Shown here: positions 57,375 through 62,309 of the stretch, one piece after another
Layout: each line of letters opens with the position of its first letter
Numbering within the stretch: the stretch's first letter is position 1
Assembly: GCA_947475225.1 (NCBI GenBank)
Contig: CANJMQ010000003.1
Coordinates: 1 to 64,000, forward strand
Source of the DNA: Bradyrhizobiaceae bacterium
Lineage (GTDB): Bacteria > Pseudomonadota > Alphaproteobacteria > Rhizobiales > Aestuariivirgaceae
Direction: 5' to 3'
Length of the DNA stretch: 64,000 nt
Position numbers and translations under genes: made by a program
The notes under the pieces: model-generated
Told to the model about the DNA's origin: nothing
Databases searched by the model: none
The model's input: only the letters and a program-made list of their open reading frames with translations

Positions 57375-58634
57375 ATGATGCTCGCAACAGCCAGTTCCTG
57401 CCGCGTAGCCGCAGCCCGCCTGCTGCCTGGGCTAATTCTGGCTGCGCTGTTCCTGCTCACCGGGTTCCGCCTGCCCGCGGCCGATGCCGCGAACCTTCCG
57501 GTCGCCACGGCGGCCCGTGTCGCCGGTGATGAGACGCGCACCCGCTTCGTGGCCGACCTGACTGTGCCGGTCGGGTACACCGTTTACGTCATGGCCAACC
57601 CCTACCGGGTGATGATTGATCTGCCGCAGGTCTCCTTCTCCCTGCCGGAGGGGGCAGGCGACAACACGCGCGGCCTCGTCAAGCAGTACCGCTTCGGCCC
57701 GGTTGACGAGGGCCATTCCCGCATCGTGATCGACACCGACGGCCCGGTGCTGATCGACAAGGCCTTTCTTCTCAAGCCGAAGAAGGATGGCCAGCCCGCC
57801 CACATCGTTGTCGACATCGTCAGGACCACGAAGCAGGCCTTCGACGCCAAGCTCGCCGCCGAAGGCGACTCCGGCACCGCCGAGGCGGCCCCGGAGGACA
57901 CGCCCCCCGCGAGTGCTAGTGCTCCGGCCAACCCGCGTGATCGCAAGCTCGTGGTCATTGACCCTGGCCACGGCGGAATTGATCCCGGCGCCATCGGCAT
58001 GGGAAAGACCCGGGAGAAGGACGTCGTCCTGGCATTTGGCCTCAAGCTCAAGAAGGCTCTTGAGGCCGGCGGCACCATCGACGTGGTGATGACCCGTTCG
58101 GATGACACTTTCCTCACGTTGCGCGACCGGGTGAAGGTGGCGCGCGACAAGGAGGCGGACCTGTTCATTGCCATTCACGCCGACACGGTGCGTGGTGGTG
58201 ATGCGCGCGGTGCCACAATTTACACGCTGTCCGAGAAGGCCTCCGACGCCGAGGCTGAAGCCTTGGCCCACAAGGAAAACCGCGCCGACATCATCGCCGG
58301 CATCGACCTCGAGGCCGAGAACCAGGAAGTGACCGACATCCTGATCGACCTTGCCCAGCGCGAATCGAAGACCCATTCCCTCGTGTTCGCCAAGAAGGCG
58401 GTGGCTGAAATGTCACCGGTGACGGCCTTCACCGGCAAGCCCATGCGCTCGGCGGGGTTCATGGTGCTGAAGGCGGCTGACGTGCCCTCCGTGCTCATCG
58501 AACTGGGGTTCCTGTCGAGCAAGCAGGACGAGAGCCAGCTGACCTCGCCCGAATGGCAGCAGAAGGTGGCGGGCGCCATGGGCCGCGCCGTCGAGAAATA
58601 CTTCGCCACGCAACTTGCTGCCCGCACGCCCTGA
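57375..58634 (+). CDS. amiC: N-acetylmuramoyl-L-alanine amidase (AMIN + Amidase_3)
   Basis: 'KLVVIDPGHGGIDPGAIGMGKTREKDVVLAFGLKLKKAL...FIAIHADTVRGGDARGATIYTLSEKASDAEAEALAHKEN...PSVLIELGFLSSKQDE'. Confidence 0.95.
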   Translation: MMLATASSCRVAAARLLPGLILAALFLLTGFRLPAADAANLPVATAARVAGDETRTRFVADLTVPVGYTVYVMANPYRVMIDLPQVSFSLPEGAGDNTRGLVKQYRFGPVDEGHSRIVIDTDGPVLIDKAFLLKPKKDGQPAHIVVDIVRTTKQAFDAKLAAEGDSGTAEAAPEDTPPASASAPANPRDRKLVVIDPGHGGIDPGAIGMGKTREKDVVLAFGLKLKKALEAGGTIDVVMTRSDDTFLTLRDRVKVARDKEADLFIAIHADTVRGGDARGATIYTLSEKASDAEAEALAHKENRADIIAGIDLEAENQEVTDILIDLAQRESKTHSLVFAKKAVAEMSPVTAFTGKPMRSAGFMVLKAADVPSVLIELGFLSSKQDESQLTSPEWQQKVAGAMGRAVEKYFATQLAARTP

Positions 58635-58725
58635 TCTAGGCATTGCGCCACTCCGATCGAGCATCGCAGATTTTTAAAGGACCGCGCTGGCATAATTGGA
58701 AATACTGAGTTTCCTTGTGGTTTTT

Positions 58726-58755
58726 ACCTATGTATAGTAAAATATACTTATAGGT
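58726..58755. promoter_or_regulatory. AT-rich imperfect dyad (possible operator or terminator)
   Basis: acctat-gtata...tatac-tt-ataggt in an AT-rich patch between amiC and the Cys-rich gene. Confidence 0.4.
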
Positions 58756-58895
58756 TCGTTGTGGACATCAGTTGCACCTGCACATAAACGTATCCAGCGG
58801 CTAACCTGATCCTGTTCCGTACTTTTCCTGCCGCTTTCCCCTTGGCGGAACCGGACTATTACAGCCAATTCGGGGGCATCCCGAGGAAGGGCAAC

Positions 58896-59570
58896 ATGAA
58901 ACTCCTCACCAGGCTACTTGGAATTGCGCTTGTCTGCATGGCATTCGGCCTGCACATAAATTCGGTTCAGGCGGCGTCAAAGATCTCTAAGACCTCTATT
59001 GAGCTCTGTGGCTCTAAAGACGTCAGCTACAAGTTTGCCCTCTGCGCCGCCACGACCTGCACGCCTACGGGAAAGCGCATCGCTGTCAATACGCCTGAGG
59101 GTGGCAAGCGTTGGTTCAAAGAGGCACTTTGCACCTGCCCCGTGCTCGACACCCAGGACACAGGCCTGCCAGCCGTTGCCAATGTGGCTGGCGGCAACAT
59201 GCAGGGCAGCTGCCTCCCGCCGAACGTGGCGACGGTCTGGTCGCTCTATTCAACCGCCACCAAGTTCCCGCAACTGAGTGACGGCAATCCGCCGACTTGG
59301 AGCCTGCAAGCGGCTGGAGTGCAGCAATGTTCGGCGAGCCTTAATCAGGGCAGGGAATTCGCCCAATGCTTCAGTTTCAAATGTGACAATATTCGCACAT
59401 CGCTCGAGGGAGGCGTAACCACCACGGTCGCTGACTGTCGTTGCCCGCTGGGCGAGGACGTGTTTTCGGCACTGCCGGCCAAGGCGGCGACAAGCTTTGT
59501 CACGGGCGCCGGTACCAGCTGGAGCAATCCGGCAAGCGCTTGCTACCAGCACCCAGTCGGTGGCTTCTGA
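58896..59570 (+). CDS. Secreted Cys-rich protein with duplicated six-Cys module (unknown family)
   Basis: RBS-like aggaaggg before ATG; signal peptide MKLLTRLLGIALVCMAFGLHINSVQA; two copies of C-x(11-12)-C-x4-C-x(17-23)-C-x-C-P-x(23-31)-C. Confidence 0.8.
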   Translation: MKLLTRLLGIALVCMAFGLHINSVQAASKISKTSIELCGSKDVSYKFALCAATTCTPTGKRIAVNTPEGGKRWFKEALCTCPVLDTQDTGLPAVANVAGGNMQGSCLPPNVATVWSLYSTATKFPQLSDGNPPTWSLQAAGVQQCSASLNQGREFAQCFSFKCDNIRTSLEGGVTTTVADCRCPLGEDVFSALPAKAATSFVTGAGTSWSNPASACYQHPVGGF

Positions 59571-59597
59571 TCGCCGGTTTACTTGTCTAACGACGTC

Positions 59598-59630
59598 ACC
59601 CGCGGGGACATTCCCCCGCGGGTTTTTCTT
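59598..59630 (+). terminator. Rho-independent terminator after the Cys-rich gene
   Basis: acccgcgggg-acattc-ccccgcgggt followed by ttttctt. Confidence 0.85.
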
Positions 59631-59774
59631 GGTTTGGCAGTGACATGGCCTTTCCTTCGCCCGGCGGGGGGCCGCCACCCAAGGGCCACAATCGACCCCT
59701 AGCGAATTAACTGTAAAAGGTCCTGCCGGCTGTGTTATCGGGCGGGCTGCAACAGGCTGGTGTCGTTTCACAGA

Positions 59775-62309
59775 ATGCTTCGTTTCCTCGGTTGGTTGTT
59801 CGCGGTCGGTTTCATGCTCTTCGTCGCAGCGGCGGCGGGTGTGGGCTATGTGATCTGGACCGCTTCGAAGGACCTGCCGGACTACACCCAGCTCGCCAAT
59901 TACGCCCCCCCGGTGATGACCCGCATCTATGCCGCCGACGGCTCGATGCTGGCGGAATATGCCGAGGAGCGCCGGCTCTTCGTGCCCGTAAACCAGATGC
60001 CGAAGCTGCTGATCGACGCCTTCACCTCAGCCGAGGACAAGACTTTCTTCACCCATGGCGGGCTGGACTGGCAGGGGATCGCCGCCGCTGCCTATCGCTA
60101 TGCCCAGGTAAAGTTCACCGGCAAGGGACAGATCGTCGGCGCTTCCACCATCACCCAGCAGGTGGCCAAGAACTTTCTCCTCAGCAACGAGCGCTCGATC
60201 GACCGCAAGCTGAAAGAGGCGATTCTCGTTCGCCGCATCGAGCAAACCTTCACCAAGGACCAGATCCTCGAGCTCTATCTGAACGAGATATTCCTCGGCA
60301 TGAACTCGTATGGCGTGGCCGCCGCCTCGCTCAATTATTTCGGCAAGTCGCTGGACCAACTGTCTCTGGAGGAGATGGCCTATCTCGCGGCACTGCCCAA
60401 GGGCCCCAACAACTATCACCCGTTCCGCCAGAAGGCGCGTGCCATCGAGCGCCGCAACTGGGTGCTGCTGCAGATGCAGGAGAACGGCTACATCACCGAA
60501 GAGCAGATGAAGGCGGCGCAGGACAAGCCTCTCGAGGTCACCCTGCGGCCTTTCGGCGCCCAGCTCTTCGCCGCTGAAAGCTTCGCCGAGGAAGTGCGCC
60601 GAGAGCTGATCGGGCTCTACGGCAAGGACAAGATGGAGAAGGGTGGCCTCTCGGTCAGGACAACGCTTGACCCGAAGCTGCAGCTCTATGCCCGCCAGTC
60701 GCTGGCCCGCGGCCTCATCGCCTTCGACAGGAAGCGCGGCTACCGCGGTCCGCTCGGTGTGGGCGAACTCGGCGCCGTGCCGGACTGGGCGCTGCTGATG
60801 AAGGACAAGAAGGTGCCCGACGACATGGCACCCTGGCGCATCGCGGTAGTGCTCGACGTCAGCGACAGCGAGGCAACCGTCGGTCTTCAGCCCGCGCTGC
60901 AGCCCGACGGCACCATGGCAGCAGAGCGCGAGCGGGGCACGATCCCGCTGGAGCTTCTCAGCTGGGCCCGCGACTATGTCGATGGCACCAAGCTCGGCCC
61001 CCAGGTCAAGAAGGCCTCCGACGTGCTGAAGCCCGGCGACATCGTGTATGTTGCGCCCAGTTCCAAGCAGCCTGGCCAGTATCACCTGATGCAGGCGCCG
61101 GAGGTCGATGGCGCATTGATCGCCATGGATCCGCACACCGGCCGTGTGCTTGCGCTTGTCGGTGGCTTCTCCTATGGCCGCAGCCAGTTCAACCGCGCCG
61201 TGCAGGCGATGCGCCAGCCCGGCTCATCCTTCAAGCCCATCGTCTATGCGGCGGCCCTCGACAACGGCTACTCGCCGGCCTCCGTGGTGCTTGACGCGCC
61301 CATCGAGTTCAAGATGCCGGACGGCTCGATGTGGAAGCCCAAGAATTACGAAAAGTCATTCTTCGGCCCCGCCACGCTGCGCCGTGGCATCGAGCAGTCG
61401 CGCAACGTGATGACGGTGCGGCTTGCCAATGAACTCGGCATGGCCAAGATCATCGACCTGGCGACCCGGCTTGGCATCTATGACAAGCTCCCCGCCCAAC
61501 TCGCCATGGCCTTGGGCGCGGGCGAGACGACCCTGCTCAAGATGGTCACTGCCTATGCGATGATCGACAACAGCGGCAAGCGCGTCGAACCCACACTGAT
61601 CGACCGCATCCAGGACCGTTACGGCAAGACTATCTACCGGCATGACAAGCGCGACTGCTCGACCTGCCTGGCGCCGGACTGGACGGCCGACCTGCCGGAA
61701 CCCGAACTGCTCGACGTGTCCGACCAGGTGATGAACCCCTACACCGCCTACCAGATCACCTCGATGATGGAAGGCGTGGTGCAGCGCGGCACCGGCAAGA
61801 AGGTTCTGGCGGTGGGCAAGCCCGTGGCCGGCAAGACCGGCACCTCGAACGAGGAGCGTGACGCCTGGTTCATCGGCTTCACGCCGGACATGGTGGTCGG
61901 CACCTATGTCGGCTTCGACAACCCCAAGCCGATGGGCAAGGGCCGCACTGGCGGCGAACTTGCAGCACCCATCGTCGCCGATTTCATGAAGCTGGCGCTC
62001 AAGGACAAGCCGGCAACGCCGTTCCGCGTACCGCGTGCCATTGAGCTCATTCCCATCGACGCCAAGAGCGGCAAGCGCGCCATCTTCGGGCATGACGGCG
62101 TTATCCTCGAGGCCTTCAAGCCAGGTGACGAGCCGCCGGATTCGACCAAGATCATCGGCGACGGATCCTCGGTCGCCGCAGCCGGAACCAACGCCGATGG
62201 CGGCGTCATGCTGGTGCCGCCGTCGCAGGGTGAAGCACCGGCCCAGCAGGCACCCGACCAGCCCCCCGCCAGTGGCGGGTTGACGGGGCAGGGCGGCGGC
62301 CTCTATTGA
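59775..62309 (+). CDS. mrcA: Penicillin-binding protein 1A (transglycosylase/transpeptidase); GTG at 59760 is an alternative start
   Basis: 'AFTSAEDKTFFTHGGLDWQGIAAAAYRYAQ...GASTITQQVAKNFLLSNERSIDRKLKEAILVRRIEQTFTKDQILELYLNEIFLG', 'QPGSSFKPIVYAAAL', 'AGKTGTSNEERDAWFIGF'. Confidence 0.96.
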   Translation: MLRFLGWLFAVGFMLFVAAAAGVGYVIWTASKDLPDYTQLANYAPPVMTRIYAADGSMLAEYAEERRLFVPVNQMPKLLIDAFTSAEDKTFFTHGGLDWQGIAAAAYRYAQVKFTGKGQIVGASTITQQVAKNFLLSNERSIDRKLKEAILVRRIEQTFTKDQILELYLNEIFLGMNSYGVAAASLNYFGKSLDQLSLEEMAYLAALPKGPNNYHPFRQKARAIERRNWVLLQMQENGYITEEQMKAAQDKPLEVTLRPFGAQLFAAESFAEEVRRELIGLYGKDKMEKGGLSVRTTLDPKLQLYARQSLARGLIAFDRKRGYRGPLGVGELGAVPDWALLMKDKKVPDDMAPWRIAVVLDVSDSEATVGLQPALQPDGTMAAERERGTIPLELLSWARDYVDGTKLGPQVKKASDVLKPGDIVYVAPSSKQPGQYHLMQAPEVDGALIAMDPHTGRVLALVGGFSYGRSQFNRAVQAMRQPGSSFKPIVYAAALDNGYSPASVVLDAPIEFKMPDGSMWKPKNYEKSFFGPATLRRGIEQSRNVMTVRLANELGMAKIIDLATRLGIYDKLPAQLAMALGAGETTLLKMVTAYAMIDNSGKRVEPTLIDRIQDRYGKTIYRHDKRDCSTCLAPDWTADLPEPELLDVSDQVMNPYTAYQITSMMEGVVQRGTGKKVLAVGKPVAGKTGTSNEERDAWFIGFTPDMVVGTYVGFDNPKPMGKGRTGGELAAPIVADFMKLALKDKPATPFRVPRAIELIPIDAKSGKRAIFGHDGVILEAFKPGDEPPDSTKIIGDGSSVAAAGTNADGGVMLVPPSQGEAPAQQAPDQPPASGGLTGQGGGLY

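Follow-up and report, generated by a model that had tools for sequence, protein, structure and literature searches.

The amiC-PBP1A interval

In the window, that is, the whole stretch of 64,000 nucleotides analysed here, a gene encoding an exported protein of 224 aa with 12 cysteines (58896-59570, forward strand) was found between amiC (57375-58634, forward strand; Pfam domains AMIN and Amidase_3) and the PBP1A gene (59760-62309, forward strand; Pfam domains Transgly, PCB_OB and Transpeptidase). The coding sequence, whose coordinates and length had been given correctly in the initial annotation, was supported by the translation of the open reading frame, by dN/dS and by family profile matches. 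The signal peptide, read by eye, comprised residues 1-26 (58896-58973, forward strand), with the predicted cleavage falling between MKLLTRLLGIALVCMAFGLHINSVQA, which ends in SVQA, and the following AS. All 12 cysteines were placed in the mature part, in agreement with the earlier view of a secreted disulfide-rich protein.

The gene occupies a lineage-specific single-gene insert, delimited at 58637-59671 by BLASTN against relatives and by gap lengths. Similarity to the flanks of the relatives ended at about 58636, 1-2 bases past amiC, and returned at about 59670, some 90 bp ahead of the PBP1A gene. The amiC-PBP1A distance was read from two protein searches over the 37 genomes of the genus, wherever both genes lay on one contig, and it amounted to 1143 bp here versus mostly 109-290 bp in the relatives, which, together with the breaks of flank similarity, bore out the insertion proposed initially. 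Other enlarged gaps were observed, of about 1.1-1.4 kb in genomes G017, G018 and G034, about 2.1 kb in G005, G010 and G023, and 4.5 kb in G009. The gap held a DUF1194 (VWA-like) gene in G017 (L113) and G018 (L112) and an ATP-grasp gene in G034 (L114), and the occurrence of different single genes at this place indicated a slot for small, swappable cargo, so that the cell-wall neighbours of the 12-Cys gene are probably incidental. This is also suggested by G018, whose copy of the gene, 91% identical to that of the window, was found on another contig adjoining a mechanosensitive-channel gene, its own amiC-PBP1A gap being filled by the unrelated DUF1194 gene. The setting first given to the gene was right as to the insertion and too narrow otherwise, since the gene belongs to a large family present in tailed phages. 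A prophage remnant was rejected for this locus, where no phage neighbours were present and amiC and the PBP1A gene adjoin the single-gene insert.

The window copy and the G018 copy matched by BLASTN from 58830 to 59575 (530-1266 of L010) at 90.8%, and their dN/dS of 0.28 indicated that the open reading frame is a real gene under purifying selection. Upstream, only the 66-bp leader (58830-58895, forward strand) was common to both copies, and it included the Shine-Dalgarno sequence GAGGAAGG at 58883-58890, the good ribosome-binding site of the initial annotation. The AT-rich segment further upstream (58661-58790), which is the presumed promoter region, was absent from this shared part and presented 39% GC, compared with 63-66% in the adjoining genes; the GC3 of the gene itself (0.69) was also below that of its neighbours (0.80-0.89). 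A sigma-70 consensus promoter was looked for upstream of the gene and not found, and an Rfam search for an upstream RNA element gave no match. The AT-richness claimed for this region was therefore real, whereas the dyad claimed with it, the weak A/T-rich repeat ACCTATGTATA...TATACTTATAGGT (58726-58755, forward strand), did not stand out, since its fold of -8.4 kcal/mol corresponded to a z of -1.4 and was equalled by 19 of 200 shuffles. Downstream, the gene had its own strong intrinsic terminator, as had been noted, composed of a 10-pair stem, a 6-nt loop and a T-rich tail (59598-59623, or 59598-59633 with the tail, forward strand).

Cysteine modules and predicted fold

The 12 cysteines (residues 38, 50, 55, 79, 81 and 106, and 145, 158, 163, 181, 183 and 216) were arranged in two modules of six, C-x11-C-x4-C-x23-C-x-C-P-x23-C in the first (Cys 38-106; 59007-59213, forward strand) and C-x12-C-x4-C-x17-C-x-C-P-x31-C in the second (Cys 145-216; 59328-59543, forward strand). 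Both fitted the six-cysteine pattern previously proposed, and two copies of it appeared in none of 200,000 composition-preserving shuffles, one copy being found in five. The likeness of the halves rests on cysteine spacing and on the layout of secondary structure, given that hhalign assigned the two halves of the window protein a probability of 12.7%, with no significant likeness beyond the cysteines, and that, with the cysteines kept fixed, 41-64 of 300 shuffles attained their Smith-Waterman scores. In this way, the duplication put forward initially was upheld for the arrangement of cysteines and strands and not for the remaining sequence, and an internal duplication of a six-cysteine module is plausible.

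The same arrangement was conserved in the family. In an alignment of 90 rows containing the window protein and viral members, one of them truncated, all 12 cysteines were present in 83 (the window and 82 viral rows), which corresponds to 82 of the 88 full-length non-redundant viral members among the matches listed. The family order C..C-x4-C..C-x-C-P..C, repeated twice, aligned with the window protein at every cysteine, and the C-x4-C and C-x-C spacings of both modules were invariant in the 83 complete rows; the window was an outlier in its C1-C2 spacing of 11, which was 6 in the other 82. The family motifs ALCAAST, GNMxGSC, VWSL and PQ were represented in the window protein by ALCAATTC, GGNMQGSC, VWSLYS and FPQL. 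A single clade of six rows lacked C3 and C4 of module 1 and C1, C2, C5 and C6 of module 2, and retained the exact complement of these six cysteines. The clade (L076, L098, L107, L171, L174 and L177) offers a test of the disulfide map made by nature, and the simplest reading of the joint loss is pairing within modules, in which C3 would pair with C4 in each and C1, C2, C5 and C6 would form two more disulfides. Since it is confined to one clade, the loss may represent one evolutionary event.

The AlphaFold2 model of the window protein, built on a 61-row alignment, reached a pLDDT of 89.2 and a pTM of 0.86, and that of the phage member L087 a pLDDT of 93.1 and a pTM of 0.86. Both models were beta-rich. 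A long hairpin was present in each half of the window model, C3 being placed at the beginning of it and C4 and C5 towards the end. Foldseek found no match in the PDB for either model at E <= 1e-3. In BFVD, the window model had one match, A0A6J5QU59, an uncharacterized protein of an uncultured Caudovirales phage that adopted the same fold (TM 0.75/0.82, E 1.7e-14, 26% identity); this uncharacterised database entry carries no described family or function and is very probably a member of the 12-Cys family.

Known protein families were considered and set aside, all matches being at chance level, as the initial annotation, which recognised no family, had anticipated. The best Pfam match for the window, DUF3432, scored 18.4-18.8 bits against a cut-off of 26.7 and concerned one member only; over 61 members, Pfam gave a single match at E = 5e-4, in one of the 61 and thus not common to the family. 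The best PHROGs match (E 0.0022) was restricted to 4 of 61 members, NCBIfam, searched with the window protein only, gave no match, PADLOC gave none to a known defence or exclusion family, and sequence searches of the PDB gave no credible match. No description of the family was found in the open-access literature on phage, nrd, cysteine-rich and exported proteins, a scope that does not amount to proof. The family is apparently undescribed and, judging from the models, its fold is probably new.

Relatives in phages and bacteria

Viral relatives were obtained by pattern scans of IMG/VR with alignment queries, which yielded 13, then 282 and then 304 contigs, with overlapping counts, and the best 80 of the 282 and the best 80 of the 304 were retrieved. 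Alignment queries were needed, as the window protein alone had found no match in the first viral scan. Among the matches listed, the neighbouring genes were of tailed-phage type and included members of the NrdA, NrdB, DNA polymerase, holin, tail fibre, portal, terminase and endolysin families; of the 89 non-redundant viral loci among them, 17 had nrdA, 11 had nrdB and 11 had a glutaredoxin gene at a distance of no more than 5 kb. At several loci (L087, L099 and L164), the gene was enclosed in an nrdA-nrdB-glutaredoxin run, where it overlapped its neighbours or was only a few bases away from them. DUF5675 and a GTA-type holin were close to it in a high-GC group, and primase and ThyX in another group, and it was also observed beside a small, holin-like gene with two TM segments and in a dCMP deaminase context. 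Such varied contexts fit a portable accessory gene, and because its placement differs by phage group (nrd region versus tail and lysis genes), the timing of its expression is probably not uniform. Members were also recognised on viral contigs of 170-345 kb, which correspond to very large phages (L056, L058, L069, L071 and L073).

Among the matches listed, 80 non-redundant viral members had a start methionine, and a crude test detected an N-terminal hydrophobic core in 77 of them, a result that speaks for an exported protein and not for a component of the virion. The N termini of two members (L093:5850-6464 and L096:1926-2540), both adjoined by a dCMP-deaminase-like gene, resembled a membrane anchor and not a cleaved signal. 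Scorable viral pairs presented dN/dS values of 0.06-0.19. No relative was found in the 50,697 records of INPHARED with four different members as queries, and plasmid cargo was discarded after PLSDB searches returned no match. Taken at the level of sequence, the window gene is best described as a cellular member of a large phage-associated family of exported 12-Cys proteins, the phages being tailed where typed.

The cellular copies were sporadic, single and at unrelated loci. Besides the copy in G018, they comprised a fragment located at the edge of a contig in G025, one relative in a MAG labelled Pseudoxanthobacter (G154/L012) and relatives in three MAGs labelled Deltaproteobacteria (L015-L017). 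The genome of the window had a second, divergent copy with 14 cysteines (L009:3434-4213, G000:C58), flanked on one side by a hybrid histidine kinase gene and on the other by a sugar-type ABC transporter operon; 14 cysteines were also found in the two Deltaproteobacteria copies counted. These 14-Cys forms (L015-L017 and L009) had in common an additional pair, in AGQC and in a C-terminal CLG, which suggests a seventh disulfide. When 385 genomes of the class and 299 of the phylum were sampled with the full profile, this genome alone gave a match, and the family otherwise looks absent. The cellular copies may be undercounted, because one scan of genome contigs used patterns from few sequences, and MAG binning errors are possible for short contigs; the window copy is on an 89-kb chromosomal contig.

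A possible role in superinfection exclusion

The best-known exclusion proteins of phages are small and simple, and an exported protein with twelve cysteines is, to our knowledge, unusual among them. Following established cell biology, export combined with 12 conserved cysteines points to an oxidising compartment and argues against a virion or cytosolic role, and the presence of the gene at varied positions in many phages, some of them large and RNR-bearing, suggests an accessory function during infection. By analogy with known phage proteins, the preferred reading, with a probability of roughly 0.38, is that of an exported, oxidatively folded accessory protein that acts at the envelope and serves, most likely, for superinfection exclusion. 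Exclusion is preferred because, by protecting against phage, it would account best for the maintenance by selection of one bacterial copy with a terminator to itself. Against it, PADLOC, PHROGs and Pfam gave no match of any member to a known exclusion or defence family, and the placement of the gene differs between phage groups. The window gene would then be the cellular copy of an accessory ('moron') family otherwise found mainly in phages. The signal peptide would export the protein, and the oxidising periplasm would fold it into the compact, beta-rich form seen in the models, with up to six disulfides. Phages would produce the protein during infection, most likely to act in the host envelope, where its binding to a surface or periplasmic target would prevent the entry of a second phage, and standing resistance would fall to a bacterium that acquired the gene together with its terminator.

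Periplasmic proteins of this kind are known from phages. T4 Spackle (gp61.3) is a disulfide-bonded superinfection-exclusion protein of the periplasm, and it has in common with the family its phage origin, an export signal (cleaved in Spackle), a disulfide (predicted here) and a presumed periplasmic location (PMC7677548). The comparison concerns mode of action only, with no homology found, since mature Spackle is an alpha-helical bundle of 75 aa with one disulfide, whereas the 12-Cys proteins have about 170-200 aa and 12 cysteines, and neither the window model nor the phage model, both beta-rich, contained such a bundle. Llp and Rtp45 are small exported phage lipoproteins that block receptors from the periplasm, and Rtp45, of about 6 kDa, contains a long hairpin as well as a disulfide (PMC12685063); unlike the lipoproteins Llp, Cor and Rtp45, the window protein has no lipobox cysteine at position +1 after the predicted cleavage. 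What is new would be the family and probably its fold, the exported phage accessory function being probably of a known kind.

A rather unlikely alternative is that the protein remodels or binds the host envelope in a metabolic or protective role (ligand, glycan, metal or redox) other than exclusion. The strong conservation outside the cysteines, in the motifs described above, suggests a defined binding surface, and the glutaredoxin and RNR genes nearby give a hint of redox physiology; however, no fold or family match points to a ligand, RNR and glutaredoxin are cytosolic while the 12-Cys protein is exported, and many phages have the gene but no RNR in the sequence available. It is unlikely that the protein times lysis as a periplasmic antiholin-like factor that senses or delays it, the bacterial copies being stranded leftovers. 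T4 RI offers a precedent, as a phage antiholin released to the periplasm by a cleavable signal peptide (PMC8385771), although it differs in controlling lysis and no homology was found, and the holin contexts of two viral groups are compatible with such a role. Yet several phages place the gene in nrdA-nrdB-glutaredoxin runs, overlapping the next gene or about 25 bp from it, which suggests expression with nucleotide-metabolism genes, and the chromosomal window copy is under selection with no holin neighbour.

An origin in bacteria, with repeated capture by phages and a window copy inherited vertically or passed between bacteria, is quite unlikely. In the tree, the cellular rows were deep, long-branched and not nested among the viral ones, which would suit such an origin, as would the coexistence of two divergent copies in the genome of the window and the 14-Cys form observed among cellular copies; on the other side, the single matching genome contrasts with hundreds of viral contigs. 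The base of the tree was unresolved between cellular and viral rows, so that the tree itself favours neither a phage nor a cellular source of the cellular copies. Very improbable, finally, is a secreted factor acting outside its producer, on neighbours or predators, since the signal peptide and the stable disulfide-rich architecture that would suit it are accompanied by no adjoining secretion partner and no family-wide match to a known family, and the N termini of L093 and L096 look membrane-anchored.

Returning to superinfection exclusion, its broadest form, in which a widespread phage family with a new fold would confer exclusion at the envelope and bacteria would have acquired it repeatedly as stand-alone resistance in interchangeable slots, is put forward as a doubtful but possible extension. 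The family is common in environmental phages, yet it is missing in the family libraries and in the phage set searched, and its confidently modelled fold resembles no solved structure. These features make it a concrete target, from which a new class of interaction between phage and host, or between phages, might emerge. Being short, the genes of the cellular copies lend themselves to expression for tests. The 12-Cys protein may thus help phages, and the bacteria that have acquired it, to block competing infections.
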